From Pedobacter antarcticus (GTDB lineage: Bacteria > Bacteroidota > Bacteroidia > Sphingobacteriales > Sphingobacteriaceae), in the NCBI RefSeq assembly GCF_900112985.1, contig NZ_FONS01000004.1, forward strand, positions 186,001-250,000: a DNA stretch of 64,000 bases, read 5' to 3'. The notes below the pieces were generated by a model, which saw only the letters and a program-made list of their open reading frames with translations, was not told the DNA's origin and searched no databases. A program made the translations under genes and the position numbers. The first letter of the stretch is position 1, and every line of letters starts with the position of its first letter. Positions 33,580 through 39,050 of the stretch are shown one piece after another.

Positions 33580-33770
33580 CGGACATTGGATGCAGTCCGA
33601 CCAGGATCCGCAATAATGACGAAATACACCTTCTCGTCTGACGATAAACAGAATAAATAGGAATACTACGAATTGCTCAATCATTATTGATAGGAGAAGC
33701 GCGCAGGAATAGTTCTTTAATTTTATTTGTAAGGCTTAAATTGTTTTTCCGACTAAGCCATAAAAACAAT

Positions 33771-34190
33771 ATGAAAATTCAAAAAATGGGATACGCTTTT
33801 GGTGTAATTGCGACATCGTTAGTATTATTATGGATTGGTATTCTGAAGTTTACTGCTGCGGAGGCTGCCGCTATCAAACCTCTTGTAGAGCATAGCTTTT
33901 TAATGAGCTGGATGTATAAAATTGCTTCGGTAAATATCGTATCAGTTCTAATAGGTCTGTTTGAAATAATCACAGGTCTGCTCTTATTGCTTTCTTTTCG
34001 GATTAAAATAGCCGGAAAAATAGGAGGGTATCTCGCGTTAATCATATTTCTGACAACAATTAGCTTTCTTGTTACCACACCTGGGATTTGGAAAAAGGTT
34101 GAGTTTGTACTTGTAACCGACTTTTTCATTCTAAAAGACCTGGCATTTCTAGCTATATCCTTACAGGTAATTGAGCGTCACTCAGATTAA
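33771..34190 (+). CDS. DUF417 (YkgB-like) membrane protein
   Basis: A 139-residue membrane protein from the ATG at 33771 (MKIQKMGYAFGVIATSLVLL); the upstream part of the open frame is not protein-like. Four hydrophobic segments are visible, with the family features LWIGILKFTAAEAAAIKPLV, HSFLMSWMY and LTTISFLVTTPG. Homologues called YkgB are sometimes linked to reactive-chlorine stress; the function is not settled. At about 140 residues it is shorter than the usual 190-200, missing part of the C terminus. It precedes, but is separated from, the BlaI operon. Confidence 0.82.
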   Translation: MKIQKMGYAFGVIATSLVLLWIGILKFTAAEAAAIKPLVEHSFLMSWMYKIASVNIVSVLIGLFEIITGLLLLLSFRIKIAGKIGGYLALIIFLTTISFLVTTPGIWKKVEFVLVTDFFILKDLAFLAISLQVIERHSD

Positions 34191-34197
34191 TATCTCT

Positions 34198-34254
34198 AAA
34201 AGTTAGTATACAACTGGAAAGTCAGTTGTATAACTAACTTTTAGTTGTGTAACT
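34198..34254. promoter_or_regulatory. large dyad and repeated AGTTGTrTAACT elements, predicted BlaI-type operator
   Basis: AAAAGTTAGTATACAACTG (34198-34216) and CAGTTGTATAACTAACTTTT (34223-34242) form a near-perfect inverted repeat (one base shorter in the left arm) around a 6-base spacer. AGTTGTATAACT and then AGTTGTGTAACT (34243-34254) repeat the same half sites. The core TACA-n-TGTA spacing is the kind bound by BlaI/MecI/CopY repressors. It ends 24 bases before the blaI-like start, so repression of its own operon is expected. Confidence 0.7.
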
Positions 34255-34278
34255 GAAATATAAGTTATACCTTCGGAT

Positions 34279-34641
34279 ATGGAAGAATTAACCAGAAGCG
34301 AAGAAAGGGTAATGCAGGTCCTTTGGAAACTGCAAAGCGCATTTGTCAAGGATATTATTGAAGCACTGGACGAAGAGCCGAAGCCACCATATAATACAAT
34401 CTCCTCCACAGTAAGGTTGCTGGAGAAAAAAGGTTATGTATCCTACAAAGCGTATGGAAAAACTTATGAGTATTTTCCTGCGATAAGTAAGGCAGCGTAT
34501 ACAAAGACAACCTTCTCAAAAATGTTTGCTGGATATTTTGATAGTTCACCTGCAAGTTTACTCTCATTTATGGTTAAAGAGGAGCAGTTAAGCGAACAGG
34601 ATGTTGAAAATCTCAAAGCTTTGATCAAGAAAAAATCCTGA
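34279..34641 (+). CDS. BlaI/MecI/CopY-family repressor
   Basis: A 120-residue winged-helix protein of the BlaI/MecI type (RSEERVMQVLWKLQSAFVKDII, then NTISSTVRLLEKKGYVSYKA). The C-terminal part (YFDSSPASLLSFMVKEEQLS) is the dimerisation region. Homologues are inactivated when a partner membrane metalloprotease (BlaR1/MecR1) cuts them or triggers their loss. The partner here is the gene 2 bases downstream. A matching operator lies just upstream. Confidence 0.92.
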   Translation: MEELTRSEERVMQVLWKLQSAFVKDIIEALDEEPKPPYNTISSTVRLLEKKGYVSYKAYGKTYEYFPAISKAAYTKTTFSKMFAGYFDSSPASLLSFMVKEEQLSEQDVENLKALIKKKS

Positions 34642-34643
34642 TC

Positions 34644-36107
34644 ATGGAATTCATCTATTATCTGCTGAAAGTCAGTATATGTCTGGCGCTTTTTTTCGGA
34701 ACTTACGTGCTGTTCTTAAAGAAACTAAGCTTTTTTAAAGGTAATCGCGCGTATCTGGTTGCCACATTGCTGCTCAGTTTTACGATTCCTTCCCTGAAAT
34801 TTGAGCGAAGTCAGGAGATTATTGCTCCCCGGTTTTTTGGCGACTACGATACTGTAGAACATATATCAGGTAAATCACTTTCACCAATAGTGATCAGTGA
34901 TGCGACTGGTTTCCTGTCACTTTCAGATTTGTTTTTTTACACATATCTTTTAGTTATGCTGATGTTTTTGTCAGTAAGCTTCTTTAAAATATATCAGTTA
35001 ATCCGGTATGCCGATGCTGAGTTTACCCGTATCGACGGTTTAAAGGTCATTTATAAGAAAAGCGGCTTTGTTAACTGCTCCTTTTTTAATTACGTTTTTA
35101 TAGATCGGGACAGTCTGACAAAAAATGAAATGCAGATACTGTTAGCACATGAACGGGTTCATGCGAAACAGCTGCATACGCTCGATAAATTAGTTTTATT
35201 GCTTTGTAAATCGTTGCTGTGGTTCAATCCAGTTATTTATTGGTATGAAAAGGCTTTAGAAGAGGTACATGAATTTGAAGCCGACCAGATCACAGCAACT
35301 GAGTTTTCTGCTGATACCTATGCAAACCTGCTTATCGGACTTGCTTCAAAGAAACCATCAAATCCAATTCTCCATAGTTTCAGCAGGCAGCCACTTAAAA
35401 CCAGGATTGTAAGGCTGTTTACAAAGACATCATCCCCTAGATTGAGGTGGTCTTATTTAACCATTATTCCATTACTTGTTTGCCTAAGTTGGATATTTGC
35501 ATTTAAAGCGCCTGATATCTCCCTGAAACAGGTTGCCGGGAACAGCAATTTTGTGTTGGTTTTGGACGCCGGGCATGGGGGTACAGATAAGGGAGCTGAG
35601 GGTGGTGGCATTTTGGAAAAAGACCTGGCATTGCTAATCTTGCAAAAGGTAAACAGCATTGCAAACGAAAGAAATGTTAAAGTTGTCACGACGAGAAATA
35701 TAGACCAGTATCTATCTTTAAAGGATCGTGTTAAATCAAAAGGCGATCTATTGGTTTCATTTCATCTGGGTCAGGATATTGATCCTAAAATTAACGGAAT
35801 CCAGCTGCTGGTTGGAAATGCCGGCGCAGATAGTGTGAAACGTAAAAGGTTAGATCAAATTAGTTATCAGTTATATAAAAACTTAAGTCAGCTCAAAGAA
35901 ATTGCAGTAGACAACACACCAAAAGAAGTTGAAAGCCTGTATATTTTAAACAAAAGCAGCGCGCCGGCAATTATCCTTGAATTAGGTTATTTAAGCAATA
36001 AAAATGACAGGGATTATTTGACTAACCCCGTAAAACAGGAAGAGTTAGCAAACACAATCGTAAGTTCTATAATAGAATACAACACCATCCTAAATCGGGA
36101 AAAATAG
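34644..36107 (+). CDS. BlaR1-like M56 peptidase fused to N-acetylmuramoyl-L-alanine amidase
   Basis: A 487-residue protein. The N-terminal part has four hydrophobic segments and the M56 metalloprotease motif HERVH (His169 and His173) with a downstream ligand in EFEADQ near residue 211. A last membrane segment (about 272-292) leads to an Amidase_3 domain (about 300-487). All four amidase active-site positions are visible: His311 in LDAGHGG, Glu325 in LEKDLA, His374 in VSFHLG and Glu446 in IILELGYLSN. BlaR1 normally ends in a penicillin-binding sensor domain instead. The gene lies 2 bases after the repressor and 9 bases before a TonB receptor. Confidence 0.88.
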   Translation: MEFIYYLLKVSICLALFFGTYVLFLKKLSFFKGNRAYLVATLLLSFTIPSLKFERSQEIIAPRFFGDYDTVEHISGKSLSPIVISDATGFLSLSDLFFYTYLLVMLMFLSVSFFKIYQLIRYADAEFTRIDGLKVIYKKSGFVNCSFFNYVFIDRDSLTKNEMQILLAHERVHAKQLHTLDKLVLLLCKSLLWFNPVIYWYEKALEEVHEFEADQITATEFSADTYANLLIGLASKKPSNPILHSFSRQPLKTRIVRLFTKTSSPRLRWSYLTIIPLLVCLSWIFAFKAPDISLKQVAGNSNFVLVLDAGHGGTDKGAEGGGILEKDLALLILQKVNSIANERNVKVVTTRNIDQYLSLKDRVKSKGDLLVSFHLGQDIDPKINGIQLLVGNAGADSVKRKRLDQISYQLYKNLSQLKEIAVDNTPKEVESLYILNKSSAPAIILELGYLSNKNDRDYLTNPVKQEELANTIVSSIIEYNTILNREK

Positions 36108-36116
36108 CAAAATAAC

Positions 36117-38501
36117 ATGTTTAAATTCGCAAGCTTTCTTTTGTTTGCCGGTATGTTTTTACTGGTGAACAGATCCTCCGCGCAATATAAAATAATTGGT
36201 AATGTATCTGGAGAAGATGGCTCGGCGGCTGCCATATCGGTTACGATTACAAATAAGGATAACTTTTCGAAAATAACACGAACGGACATTCTGGGCAGGT
36301 TCATTTTTAATGATCTTAAAAAAGACAATTATCTGCTCTTATTTTCTTCGGTAGATTTTGGGGAAATACAACACAAGCTACTACTGGCGGCAGATACTGT
36401 AATTAGTGTAAAACTCGAAAAATCGGCAATTGAGCTGCAAAATGTAGAAATTCGGTCTACAAAAGCATTAATAGAGAAAAGGGTAGACAGGACAATTTTT
36501 AATGTAAATGGGAGTGTAGCCGCAATTGGAAGTGATGCACTAGAGCTAATGAGCAAAGTTCCCGGCATCCGGGTTGTAAATGACAGGGTTTCTTTAGTCG
36601 GCAAAGGAAGTATCAATATTATGATTAATGATAAACTCACGCCACTATCTGAAGATGATTTGGCTAACTATTTAAGATCTATTCCTTCAGATCATATCTC
36701 CCGAATTGAGGTTATCACCAATCCTTCTGCTAAATATGATGCTCAGGGGAATAATGGTTTGATTAATATCGTGTTAAAGAAATCTGTTGCAGAAGGATTT
36801 AAGGGGGCAGTAAATCTCGGTTTTACTCAGGCGACTCATCATACTGGCTCCGGTGGCGGAAATTTAAGCTTTAGAAAAGATAAAATCACCTTATTCACAA
36901 ATTTCAATTTTCGTAAAGGCTCAACCGTTCCTTTTGAGCAAAGCAGTATTTTTTATCCCACGCAGACCTGGAACATAGTGAATAAAGACCGGAATTTTCG
37001 AATTGTACCCAGCGGACAATTAGGTCTGGATTATCAGATTTCAAAAAATACAATTGCCGGAATCTCTTATAATGCCGGACTGACAGATTTCCATTCTGAA
37101 GAAAATATAAAAACAACAGTATTTAATAAAGCAGGGGCGATAGATTCGCTATTGAATTCTGACGCCAATGCCAAGATCAAATCGAATTATAAGACGGCAA
37201 ATTTTTATTTGAAACAGTTAATTGATACAATGGGTAAACAGCTTGTCATTAATGCAGACTGGTTTAAGTATAGAGATGATAATCAGCGATTTTTCGATAA
37301 CACAACTTATAATCAGGATGGTGGGATAATTCCAGGATCATTTGCTCAATATCTTTCGTCAAGCGGGCAGAATATCGATCTATATACCTTAAAGGCTGAT
37401 GTGGATTTACCATACAAGGCATTTACTCTTTCTTTAGGGGCAAAAGCGAGCTTTATAAAAAATAAAAGCGATGTATCCTTCTACAGGATGAAGAATGATA
37501 TTTATGAAATTGATAATAGTCAGACCAACCTTTTTAATTACACTGAAAATACACAGGCACTTTATTTTAACCTGAATAAAACCATCAATAATTGGGATTT
37601 TCAGATGGGATTAAGAGCCGAGTATACGCAGATAGAAGGTGTGTCTGTAAATTCAACAACCGGCGATGATTATCTAAGGCTGTTTCCTACTTTATTTATA
37701 AGCTATCGGAAAAATGAAGAAAGTGAGTTTTCTTTGAACTATGGACGCCGTATTAACCGGCCAGCTTATAAAAAGCTGAACCCTTTCCGATGGTACAGTA
37801 ATCAATATTCCTATGCAGAAGGTAATCCATTTCTACGACCTTCTTACAATAATAACATCGAATTGTCCCATACCTATTCCAAGGTTTTAACTACGACATT
37901 GTCGTTCAATAATACCAATGATGGGTATAGTAATGTGAATTTTACCGACGTAAATACTAATATTCAGATCTTGCGCCCCTTGAATTTAATTACCAGCTAT
38001 CAGTATCAGTTGAGCAACTCTATTATTTTTAATCAACTGAAATGGTTAGAAAGCGTAAATCAGCTGGATGTATATTATGTTAGGTCTAATTCGTCTATTG
38101 CGCAGACTTTGCCGGGTTTAAATGGTTTTGGGGCTTATTTTTCTTCCTCCAACCAAGTTGTGTTTAATAAGGTCAGAACAATGATGGGGGAGTTGAACTT
38201 TTGGTATCAGTTCCCCGGAGTTAATGAACTGAATAAAATGAAAAGTCAATATCGTCTTGATATTGGATTTAAAAGACTGCTTTTAGATAACAAACTCCAG
38301 CTTGCATTGAATGTATCCGATATACTGAAAAGCGGAAAGGAAAGATATAGTAGTATAGTCAACGGCATAGGTCAGGAGTATAAAAACTATTATGATTCAC
38401 AATATTTACGCTTAACAGTCAGGTATAATTTCGGAAACGAAAAAATTAAGCAACAAGATCATAAGCCTGGTAATGAAGAAGAAAGACGTCGGAGTAACTG
38501 A
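36117..38501 (+). CDS. TonB-dependent receptor / outer-membrane beta-barrel family protein
   Basis: A 794-residue protein with a signal peptide (about 1-22, SSAQ), a short carboxypeptidase-regulatory-like domain (about 25-105), a plug (about 115-225, IEVITNPSAKYDAQGNNGLINIVL), and a barrel with the family segment LNYGRRINRPAYKKLNPFRW. It belongs to the small-substrate, peptide-like OMP_b-brl group typical of Bacteroidota. It is the third gene of the BlaI / M56-amidase operon. The C terminus ends with a Lys/Glu/Arg tail rather than a Phe, a little unusual for a barrel. The substrate may be cell-wall or antibiotic-related, but that is inference from the operon. Confidence 0.88.
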   Translation: MFKFASFLLFAGMFLLVNRSSAQYKIIGNVSGEDGSAAAISVTITNKDNFSKITRTDILGRFIFNDLKKDNYLLLFSSVDFGEIQHKLLLAADTVISVKLEKSAIELQNVEIRSTKALIEKRVDRTIFNVNGSVAAIGSDALELMSKVPGIRVVNDRVSLVGKGSINIMINDKLTPLSEDDLANYLRSIPSDHISRIEVITNPSAKYDAQGNNGLINIVLKKSVAEGFKGAVNLGFTQATHHTGSGGGNLSFRKDKITLFTNFNFRKGSTVPFEQSSIFYPTQTWNIVNKDRNFRIVPSGQLGLDYQISKNTIAGISYNAGLTDFHSEENIKTTVFNKAGAIDSLLNSDANAKIKSNYKTANFYLKQLIDTMGKQLVINADWFKYRDDNQRFFDNTTYNQDGGIIPGSFAQYLSSSGQNIDLYTLKADVDLPYKAFTLSLGAKASFIKNKSDVSFYRMKNDIYEIDNSQTNLFNYTENTQALYFNLNKTINNWDFQMGLRAEYTQIEGVSVNSTTGDDYLRLFPTLFISYRKNEESEFSLNYGRRINRPAYKKLNPFRWYSNQYSYAEGNPFLRPSYNNNIELSHTYSKVLTTTLSFNNTNDGYSNVNFTDVNTNIQILRPLNLITSYQYQLSNSIIFNQLKWLESVNQLDVYYVRSNSSIAQTLPGLNGFGAYFSSSNQVVFNKVRTMMGELNFWYQFPGVNELNKMKSQYRLDIGFKRLLLDNKLQLALNVSDILKSGKERYSSIVNGIGQEYKNYYDSQYLRLTVRYNFGNEKIKQQDHKPGNEEERRRSN

Positions 38502-38612
38502 TTTACAGCTGATCATTATTTATATTGCGACTTCTGGCGATTTAGTAATGGCAAGATGGCCCGATTAAAAGCCTTTGCTGTTAAAAAGGAGTAACTTTCA
38601 AAAGTGATTAGT

Positions 38613-39050
38613 ATGAAAAATAAAATATTATTATTCGCGATAATTCTAATTTCGTCACTGACTTCTGAAAAGCTGGCAGGACAGACGAAAAAAGATGTCT
38701 ATTATGTCGTAGATACCCTAAGTACTGCTCCTAATAATAAGATTGCTGAGTTGGGGACGGAAGGAAACCTTAAGTATATAAGTTTTTATTGCAAGTGTGT
38801 CCCCCCTTACAACAGAAATTTAACTTTCGTTTATGATCCAGGTAAACAAAACGTTCAGATTCTTAGAGAAATTAATCATCCGACTCTTTCATGGAAGGAT
38901 TTACAAGAGTTAATCGTAAAGGCCGGGGCTGAGTTTAAGCATCAGTATAATCTGACGATACTAGAAGTACTACCCGACAAAACCTATAGATCAGCAAACG
39001 TTAGACTGGTACTATACCCCGAAACTACCGTGGATTTTGAGAAGCTTTAG
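38613..39050 (+). CDS. secreted protein of unknown function
   Basis: About 145 residues from the ATG at 38613 (MKNKILLFAIILISSLTS signal peptide, then KLAGQ); a GTG at 38604 would add three residues. The mature protein has one Cys-x-Cys (YCKCVPPYN) and a beta-rich pattern ending VRLVLYPETTVDFEKL. No family is recognised. It lies 111 bases after the receptor gene on the same strand, so it may be co-transcribed, and is followed by the large hairpin at 39127-39214. Confidence 0.75.
   Translation: MKNKILLFAIILISSLTSEKLAGQTKKDVYYVVDTLSTAPNNKIAELGTEGNLKYISFYCKCVPPYNRNLTFVYDPGKQNVQILREINHPTLSWKDLQELIVKAGAEFKHQYNLTILEVLPDKTYRSANVRLVLYPETTVDFEKL

Follow-up and report, generated by a model that had tools for sequence, protein, structure and literature searches.

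A BlaR1-like M56 protease with an Amidase_3 outer domain, encoded beside a BlaI-type repressor, as a candidate cell-wall sensor in Pedobacter antarcticus

A predicted operon around an M56–amidase fusion

The window analysed here, a stretch of 64,000 nucleotides from the 4.57 Mb genome of Pedobacter antarcticus, carries on its forward strand a putative operator region (34209–34269) directly before a gene for a 120-residue repressor of the BlaI/MecI type (34279–34641; PF03965, 103.5 bits). This is followed by a gene encoding a 487-residue fusion of an M56 protease with an Amidase_3 domain (34644–36107) and by a gene for an outer-membrane β-barrel protein (36117–38501; PF14905, 315 bits), the probable regulated gene. 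With blaI ending 2 bp before the fusion gene and the barrel gene beginning 9 bp after it, the three genes are probably cotranscribed. The repressor aligns over residues 3–119 of its 120 with the MecI structures 1sd6 and 1okr, and the aligned part includes what we take to be the region in which MecI is cut. At the N-terminus of the barrel protein there is a CarbopepD_reg-like match that stays below its Pfam cut-off. The first-pass annotation of this DNA had spoken of a TonB receptor; the barrel is indeed present and a receptor likely, but a profile search at E 0.001 gave no match to a Plug domain. Directly upstream of the operator region lies a gene for a DUF417/RclC-like membrane protein (33768–34187, forward strand). 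A small, probably secreted protein of 148 residues is encoded 102 bp past the barrel gene on the same strand (38604–39050); at E 0.001 it matched nothing in Pfam or NCBIfam, and it may be a further member of the operon.

Within the fusion protein, residues 1–264 (34644–35435) make up the predicted membrane-embedded M56 part, a zinc protease with H169ExxH173 and E210. They are followed by a helix at residues 265–286 and a short linker at 287–301 (together 35436–35546), and then by the Amidase_3 domain at residues 302–487 (35547–36104), with zinc ligands H311, E325 and H374 and catalytic E446. Pfam places Peptidase_M56 (PF05569) at residues 157–256 (38.6 bits, cut-off 31), covering only positions 187–294 of the 296 in the profile, and Amidase_3 at residues 306–477 (114.2 bits, cut-off 27). 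Across 32 aligned fusions, H169, E170 and H173 of the protease and H311 and E325 of the amidase are invariant, and E210, H374 and E446 nearly so; the roles of the four amidase residues were assigned by motif from CwlD (PMC8496864). The fused amidase domains span 176–197 residues. Of 23 free amidases from relatives, 22 span 227–256 and one 197, which suggests, by length alone, that the fused form is compact and lacks the insert of most free relatives' enzymes. Within Amidase_3, only the AmiA/B/C subset is said to have an autoinhibitory element (PMC8496864).

An AlphaFold2 model based on an alignment of 46 sequences has a mean pLDDT of 83.8 and a pTM of 0.56, a value at which the placement of the two halves relative to each other is unsure. 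Its long helices lie at residues 2–25, 31–50, 93–123 and 265–286; with the first three taken as TM1–3 and the last as TM4, they would fit the four of BlaR1. Residues 3–252 of the model match BlaR1 of Staphylococcus aureus (8exs, Z 16.1, rmsd 5.8 over 224 residues; 8ext, Z 15.6, rmsd 4.0 over 213; BlaR1 matches overall at Z 14–16). Residues 298–484 match amidases, best 4rn7 (Z 26.6, rmsd 1.6 over 178 residues) and further LytH (7tj4, Z 26.4), AmiC2 (5emi, Z 25.5) and CwlD (7rag, Z 24.3). Foldseek ranked amidases first and found BlaR1 at E 3e-5, and its joint alignment of both parts to whole BlaR1 had an rmsd of 18–19. If the topology is that of BlaR1, the M56 domain would lie in the cytoplasm and the amidase in the periplasm, where a linker of about 15 residues would hold it close to the membrane surface.

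The initial description of the gene as a BlaR1-like M56 peptidase with a complete Amidase_3 domain is borne out by both Pfam matches, which lie above their cut-offs, by the open reading frame and by the fold matches; His311, Glu325, His374 and Glu446, which it had listed as in place, are all present. An assembly artefact, which it had named as a danger to its reading, or a chance fusion is ruled out by full-length orthologues with 89% identity in P. cryoconitis and with 63% and 59% in two other genomes from the same genus, by the 60 distinct fusions described below, and by purifying selection. Compared with the 89% orthologue, the window gene has a dN/dS of 0.14 overall and 0.11 in the amidase part; all dN/dS values given here are simple pairwise counts, and several region comparisons gave no value, their dS being saturated.

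Operator palindromes, gene neighbourhood and history of the fusion

Before blaI there are two exact copies of the palindrome AGTTnnnnAACT (34224–34235 and 34243–34254), a third site with one mismatch on the other strand (34209–34235) and a half site AGTTATA, and the region is likely to overlap with the promoter core. AGTTnnnnAACT is found upstream of blaI in 53 of 60 regions (with L177, which has no sequence before blaI, scored as a miss) versus 14 of 2273 control windows from the same loci, and in 52 of 58 regions after removal of two duplicate records recognised by hand (L188 = L069, L177 = L066). It also occurs in 40 of a set of 44 blaI upstream regions, 37 of which come from fusion operons. 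Of the six regions that lack it among the 58, three (L068, L120 and L124) show by eye a TAC/GTA-type palindrome, which resembles what we take to be the classical BlaI operator. This pattern of occurrence points to the AGTTnnnnAACT palindromes as BlaI operators. The whole window contains five AGTTnnnnAACT sites against 1.5 expected, and the three outside the operator region probably arose by chance.

In the genome that holds the window, matches to the operator pattern are usable only at zero or one mismatch. With up to two mismatches, the scan returned 21 sites against 34 for the reversed control, and the attempt to define a genome-wide regulon at this threshold was dropped, the control having given more sites than the pattern itself. 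At zero or one mismatch there are three sites, two at the window operon and one at the outer-membrane gene of an M56–TonB system. This latter gene, at locus L006, is preceded by an exact composite operator, AGTTGTATAACT, which supports the barrel genes as true targets.

A search for M56–Amidase_3 fusions adjoining blaI genes, proposed as a check in the first-pass annotation, found the association throughout: blaI is in the same operon in all 62 fusion ORFs (60 distinct ones and two duplicates), immediately ahead of the fusion in 58 and separated from it by one extra M56 gene in four. Many Pedobacter operons contain a second M56 gene. A homologue of the barrel gene follows at least 33 of the 62 fusion ORFs, several loci being short, and some operons (L040, L042, L080 and L081) consist of blaI and the M56–amidase gene alone, with the next gene reversed; induction of an outer-membrane gene is plausible only where such a gene follows the fusion. 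Among other neighbours, LpxB is encoded next to blaI in L121, and penicillin acylase genes (PF01804) lie beside the fusion operons in L041 (6419–8590, reverse strand) and L080 (6481–8652, reverse strand) and at a distance of a few genes in L121 (7510–9558, forward strand). Penicillin acylase was considered as a link to β-lactams and is treated as synteny, none having been found among the five window genes tested.

With a search profile built from 32 fusions, matches covering both domains were found in at least 55 of 145 genomes of the genus, at no fewer than 57 loci (best ten candidates per genome scored). In a sample of 399 genomes of the family, genus included, at least 22 genomes of other genera have the fusion (best three candidates per genome), as do at least five genomes of two other families in a sample of 395 genomes of the class (best four candidates per genome); one more fusion (L068) comes from Gelidibacter, a member of the Flavobacteriaceae. 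The 60 distinct fusions examined come from Pedobacter, from other members of the Sphingobacteriaceae and from two or more additional families. When 41 fused and 41 unfused M56 domains are placed on one tree, at least seven changes of state are needed, and the simplest account has nine: the fusion has been repeatedly lost or gained, and it is probably old in this group. (Trees and residue tables omit M56 domains of up to 200 residues and amidase domains of up to 130, with identical sequences collapsed.) Searched by profile with every filter disabled, the tails of 40 unfused M56 proteins showed no amidase remnant (best E 0.26), on which ground hidden, decayed amidases in these proteins were rejected; the amidase is, to judge from these tails, a discrete and clean cassette. 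Two pairs of loci contrast in their synonymous divergence: for L181 and L183, dS is 0.01 in the amidase and 0.54 in the M56 domain, whereas for L181 and L184 it is 0.66 and 0.08, which suggests that the outer domain has been exchanged among strains by recombination.

Other outer domains occupy the same place in sister proteins. Out of eight unfused M56 proteins scanned, four have an LptA/OstA-like domain (PF03968) above the cut-off (L044, 184–1839; L045, 4001–6598; L046, 4001–6250; L053, 4001–5839; all on the forward strand and beside the same kind of blaI) and one below it, a hint at a second envelope signal, namely lipopolysaccharide transport. The P. antarcticus genome itself encodes two M56–TonB_C proteins, at L005 and L006, each beside blaI; the M56 match of L006, at 28.6 bits, is below the Pfam cut-off. 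These two share the M56–BlaI module with the window fusion and, in L006, the type of operator, but their outer domain is a non-enzymatic TonB C-terminal domain rather than an amidase. In L121 (3074–5575, reverse strand) and L123 (3986–6175, forward strand), M56, Amidase_3 and Plug domains are combined in single proteins, in L121 together with TonB_C.

Loss of the catalytic glutamate and the role of the outer domain

Natural variants of the active site bear on whether the outer domain binds or cuts. CwlD holds its zinc with two His and one Glu, and its presumed catalytic residue is Glu199; the E199A exchange abolishes function, yet the protein stays at its usual level and retains about 60% of its binding to GerS (PMC8496864), so that loss of this Glu need not unfold the domain. 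All zinc ligands and the catalytic Glu are present in 50 of the 60 distinct fusions, the window gene included. The other ten have lost the Glu: position 446 is Ser in four, Asp in three and His in one, and in the remaining two Gln at 374 is combined with Val or Ile at 446. Each of these Gln374 copies (L043 and L083) is the second of two in its operon, the first being intact. The zinc ligands are intact in 58 of the 60 fusions and in eight of the ten Glu-less ones, and all ten keep the fusion and a blaI in the operon. The tree needs four separate losses of the Glu; it is a quick tree with long branches (L187 at 2.41), and the count of four could change for L187.

In four pairs of the Ser lineage, dN/dS is 0.04–0.08 in the amidase versus 0.16–0.25 in the part before it. 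The amidase values are 0.11 in two pairs of the Asp lineage (a third, 0.85 at a dS of 0.01, is uninformative), 0.14 in the Gln pair, and 0.13 and 0.15 for intact copies of the same genus group, where one pair was saturated. The Ser-lineage amidase is thus under strong purifying selection, the comparison with intact copies resting on few pairs. Four Glu losses with fusion and blaI kept, together with the constraint in the Ser lineage, favour binding as the mode shared by all copies: most likely, the outer domain senses peptidoglycan by binding and cutting is optional. Intact copies, including the window gene, may cut as well, and those with Asp at 446 might have kept some activity.

On balance we think it probable, though with considerable room for doubt, that the fusion acts, in the manner of BlaR1, as a transmembrane sensor-transducer that monitors the cell wall and passes on binding in the zinc groove through M56 to the release of BlaI. 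The amidase-fold domain, situated in the periplasm near the inner membrane, would use its zinc groove to bind peptidoglycan or stem peptides, which intact copies may also cut. Occupancy of the groove would shift the fourth membrane helix and activate the cytoplasmic M56 zinc protease, which in turn would inactivate the BlaI-type repressor by cleavage or release. With BlaI off the AGTTnnnnAACT operators, blaI, the sensor gene and the outer-membrane protein gene would be induced. For β-lactams, BlaR1 follows the same order of sensing, protease and repressor (PMC7593790). We infer the ligand, the activation, the cleavage of BlaI, the induction and the amidase activity, and a ligand other than peptidoglycan is conceivable. 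A sensor-transducer that works by binding or cutting peptidoglycan had been proposed in the first-pass annotation; it fits the architecture, the model, the repressor, the operator and the conservation, and the choice left there between the two modes now leans towards binding as the one that all copies share. What stands against sensing by binding is the full catalytic set in 50 of the 60 fusions, which argues that selection for cutting persists in most of them.

This same conservation would be expected if the amidase were the output. BlaI and M56 would then, on another signal, set the amount of an amidase that, like LytH, is anchored in the membrane and trims peptidoglycan as it is made, and the fusion would merely tie the enzyme to its regulator. 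An active site complete in all four residues in 50 of 60 fusions, the compact form of the domain, its superposition on LytH with a Z of 26.4 and the existence of operons that contain blaI and M56–amidase only (L040, L042, L080 and L081) all agree with such a role. We nevertheless regard it as rather unlikely, since four times the Glu was lost while fusion and blaI were kept, the Ser lineage is strongly constrained, and sister M56 proteins carry non-enzymatic outer domains (TonB_C, LptA/OstA-like) in the same place.

N-acetylmuramoyl-L-alanine amidases release peptides that start with L-Ala, and an amidase in the same chain as M56 would supply such L-Ala-headed stem peptides. After uptake, these might be trimmed by M56 or another peptidase to γ-D-Glu-diaminopimelate, which would dissociate BlaI. 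Release of BlaI from its operator by this dipeptide has been reported, together with the proposal that BlaR uses its zinc site as an L-Ala aminopeptidase on the tripeptide, but the affinity reported is weak, at about 2–8 mM (PMC3305447). Moreover, the peptide would have to be transported and no transporter was detected among the operon genes of the window, and copies that have lost the catalytic Glu should not work in this way; we consider this route improbable. Just as doubtful is a blend of this route with sensing, in which one protein makes the coinducer of its own repressor, by an amidase cut and trimming to the dipeptide by M56 or a partner, and the enzyme has decayed four times, in side lineages, into a pure peptidoglycan receptor. 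Least probable is that M56–amidase answers a defect of the outer membrane or of lipopolysaccharide transport with the amidase only as a peptidoglycan anchor: PF03968 above cut-off in four of eight unfused M56 proteins, tails behind the amidase in eight Pedobacter fusions that are related to those of unfused proteins, and an outer-membrane protein gene after at least 33 of 62 fusion ORFs would agree with it, but an anchor needs neither the zinc ligands kept in 58 of 60 fusions nor the full catalytic set kept in 50.

Relation to known systems and meaning for the Bacteroidota

The reading as a cell-wall sensor places the fusion next to BlaR1/MecR1 and BlaI/MecI of S. aureus and B. licheniformis, with which it appears to share a four-helix membrane part with an M56 zinc protease, a single outer domain after the last helix, an adjoining BlaI-type repressor and palindromic operators before the repressor gene. 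By M56, predicted fold, repressor and operator, the system is of the BlaR1/BlaI kind, without the penicillin sensor: the outer domain of BlaR1/MecR1 is a penicillin-binding, class D β-lactamase fold, whereas that of the window fusion is Amidase_3 (residues 302–487), and the gene that comes next encodes an outer-membrane barrel instead of β-lactamase or PBP2a, with AGTTnnnnAACT as the operator motif. BlaR1-type signalling has been described for β-lactams (PMC7593790). With amidases of the LytH, CwlD and AmiC type, the fusions share fold, zinc ligands and catalytic Glu, but in the window fusion the amidase is compact and continues the chain of a signalling protease whose gene adjoins that of a BlaI-type repressor, and 10 of 60 fusions have lost the catalytic Glu.

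Also related in kind are proteins that combine M56 with M23, a different family of peptidoglycan hydrolases, in one chain. A review names M56 among the rare catalytic partners of M23, which together make up less than 1% of hits, and the excerpted text describes neither a repressor nor an operon nor a function for them (PMC9662197). With these rare fusions added, the earlier statement that no system of the present form has been described stands for the open-licence papers searched, among which we found none on M56–Amidase_3 proteins. In the excerpted text of PMC12578637, occurrences of M56 are supplier numbers and BlaI is not used for a repressor; for Porphyromonas gingivalis, a BlaI-family gene and an M56 gene are, in the part of PMC10470040 at hand, merely named in tables.

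If true, our interpretation would make the M56–BlaI module a general switch with an exchangeable outer domain, be it an amidase, TonB_C or an LptA/OstA-like domain. We know of no well-described envelope-stress regulator of a BlaR1-like kind in the Bacteroidota, for which the fusion would represent a sensor that reads the cell wall directly. Relatives without the Glu are in effect mutants supplied by nature, in which binding can be told apart from cutting; they also have a bearing on an older idea, by which fragments of peptidoglycan play a part in the regulation of BlaI.
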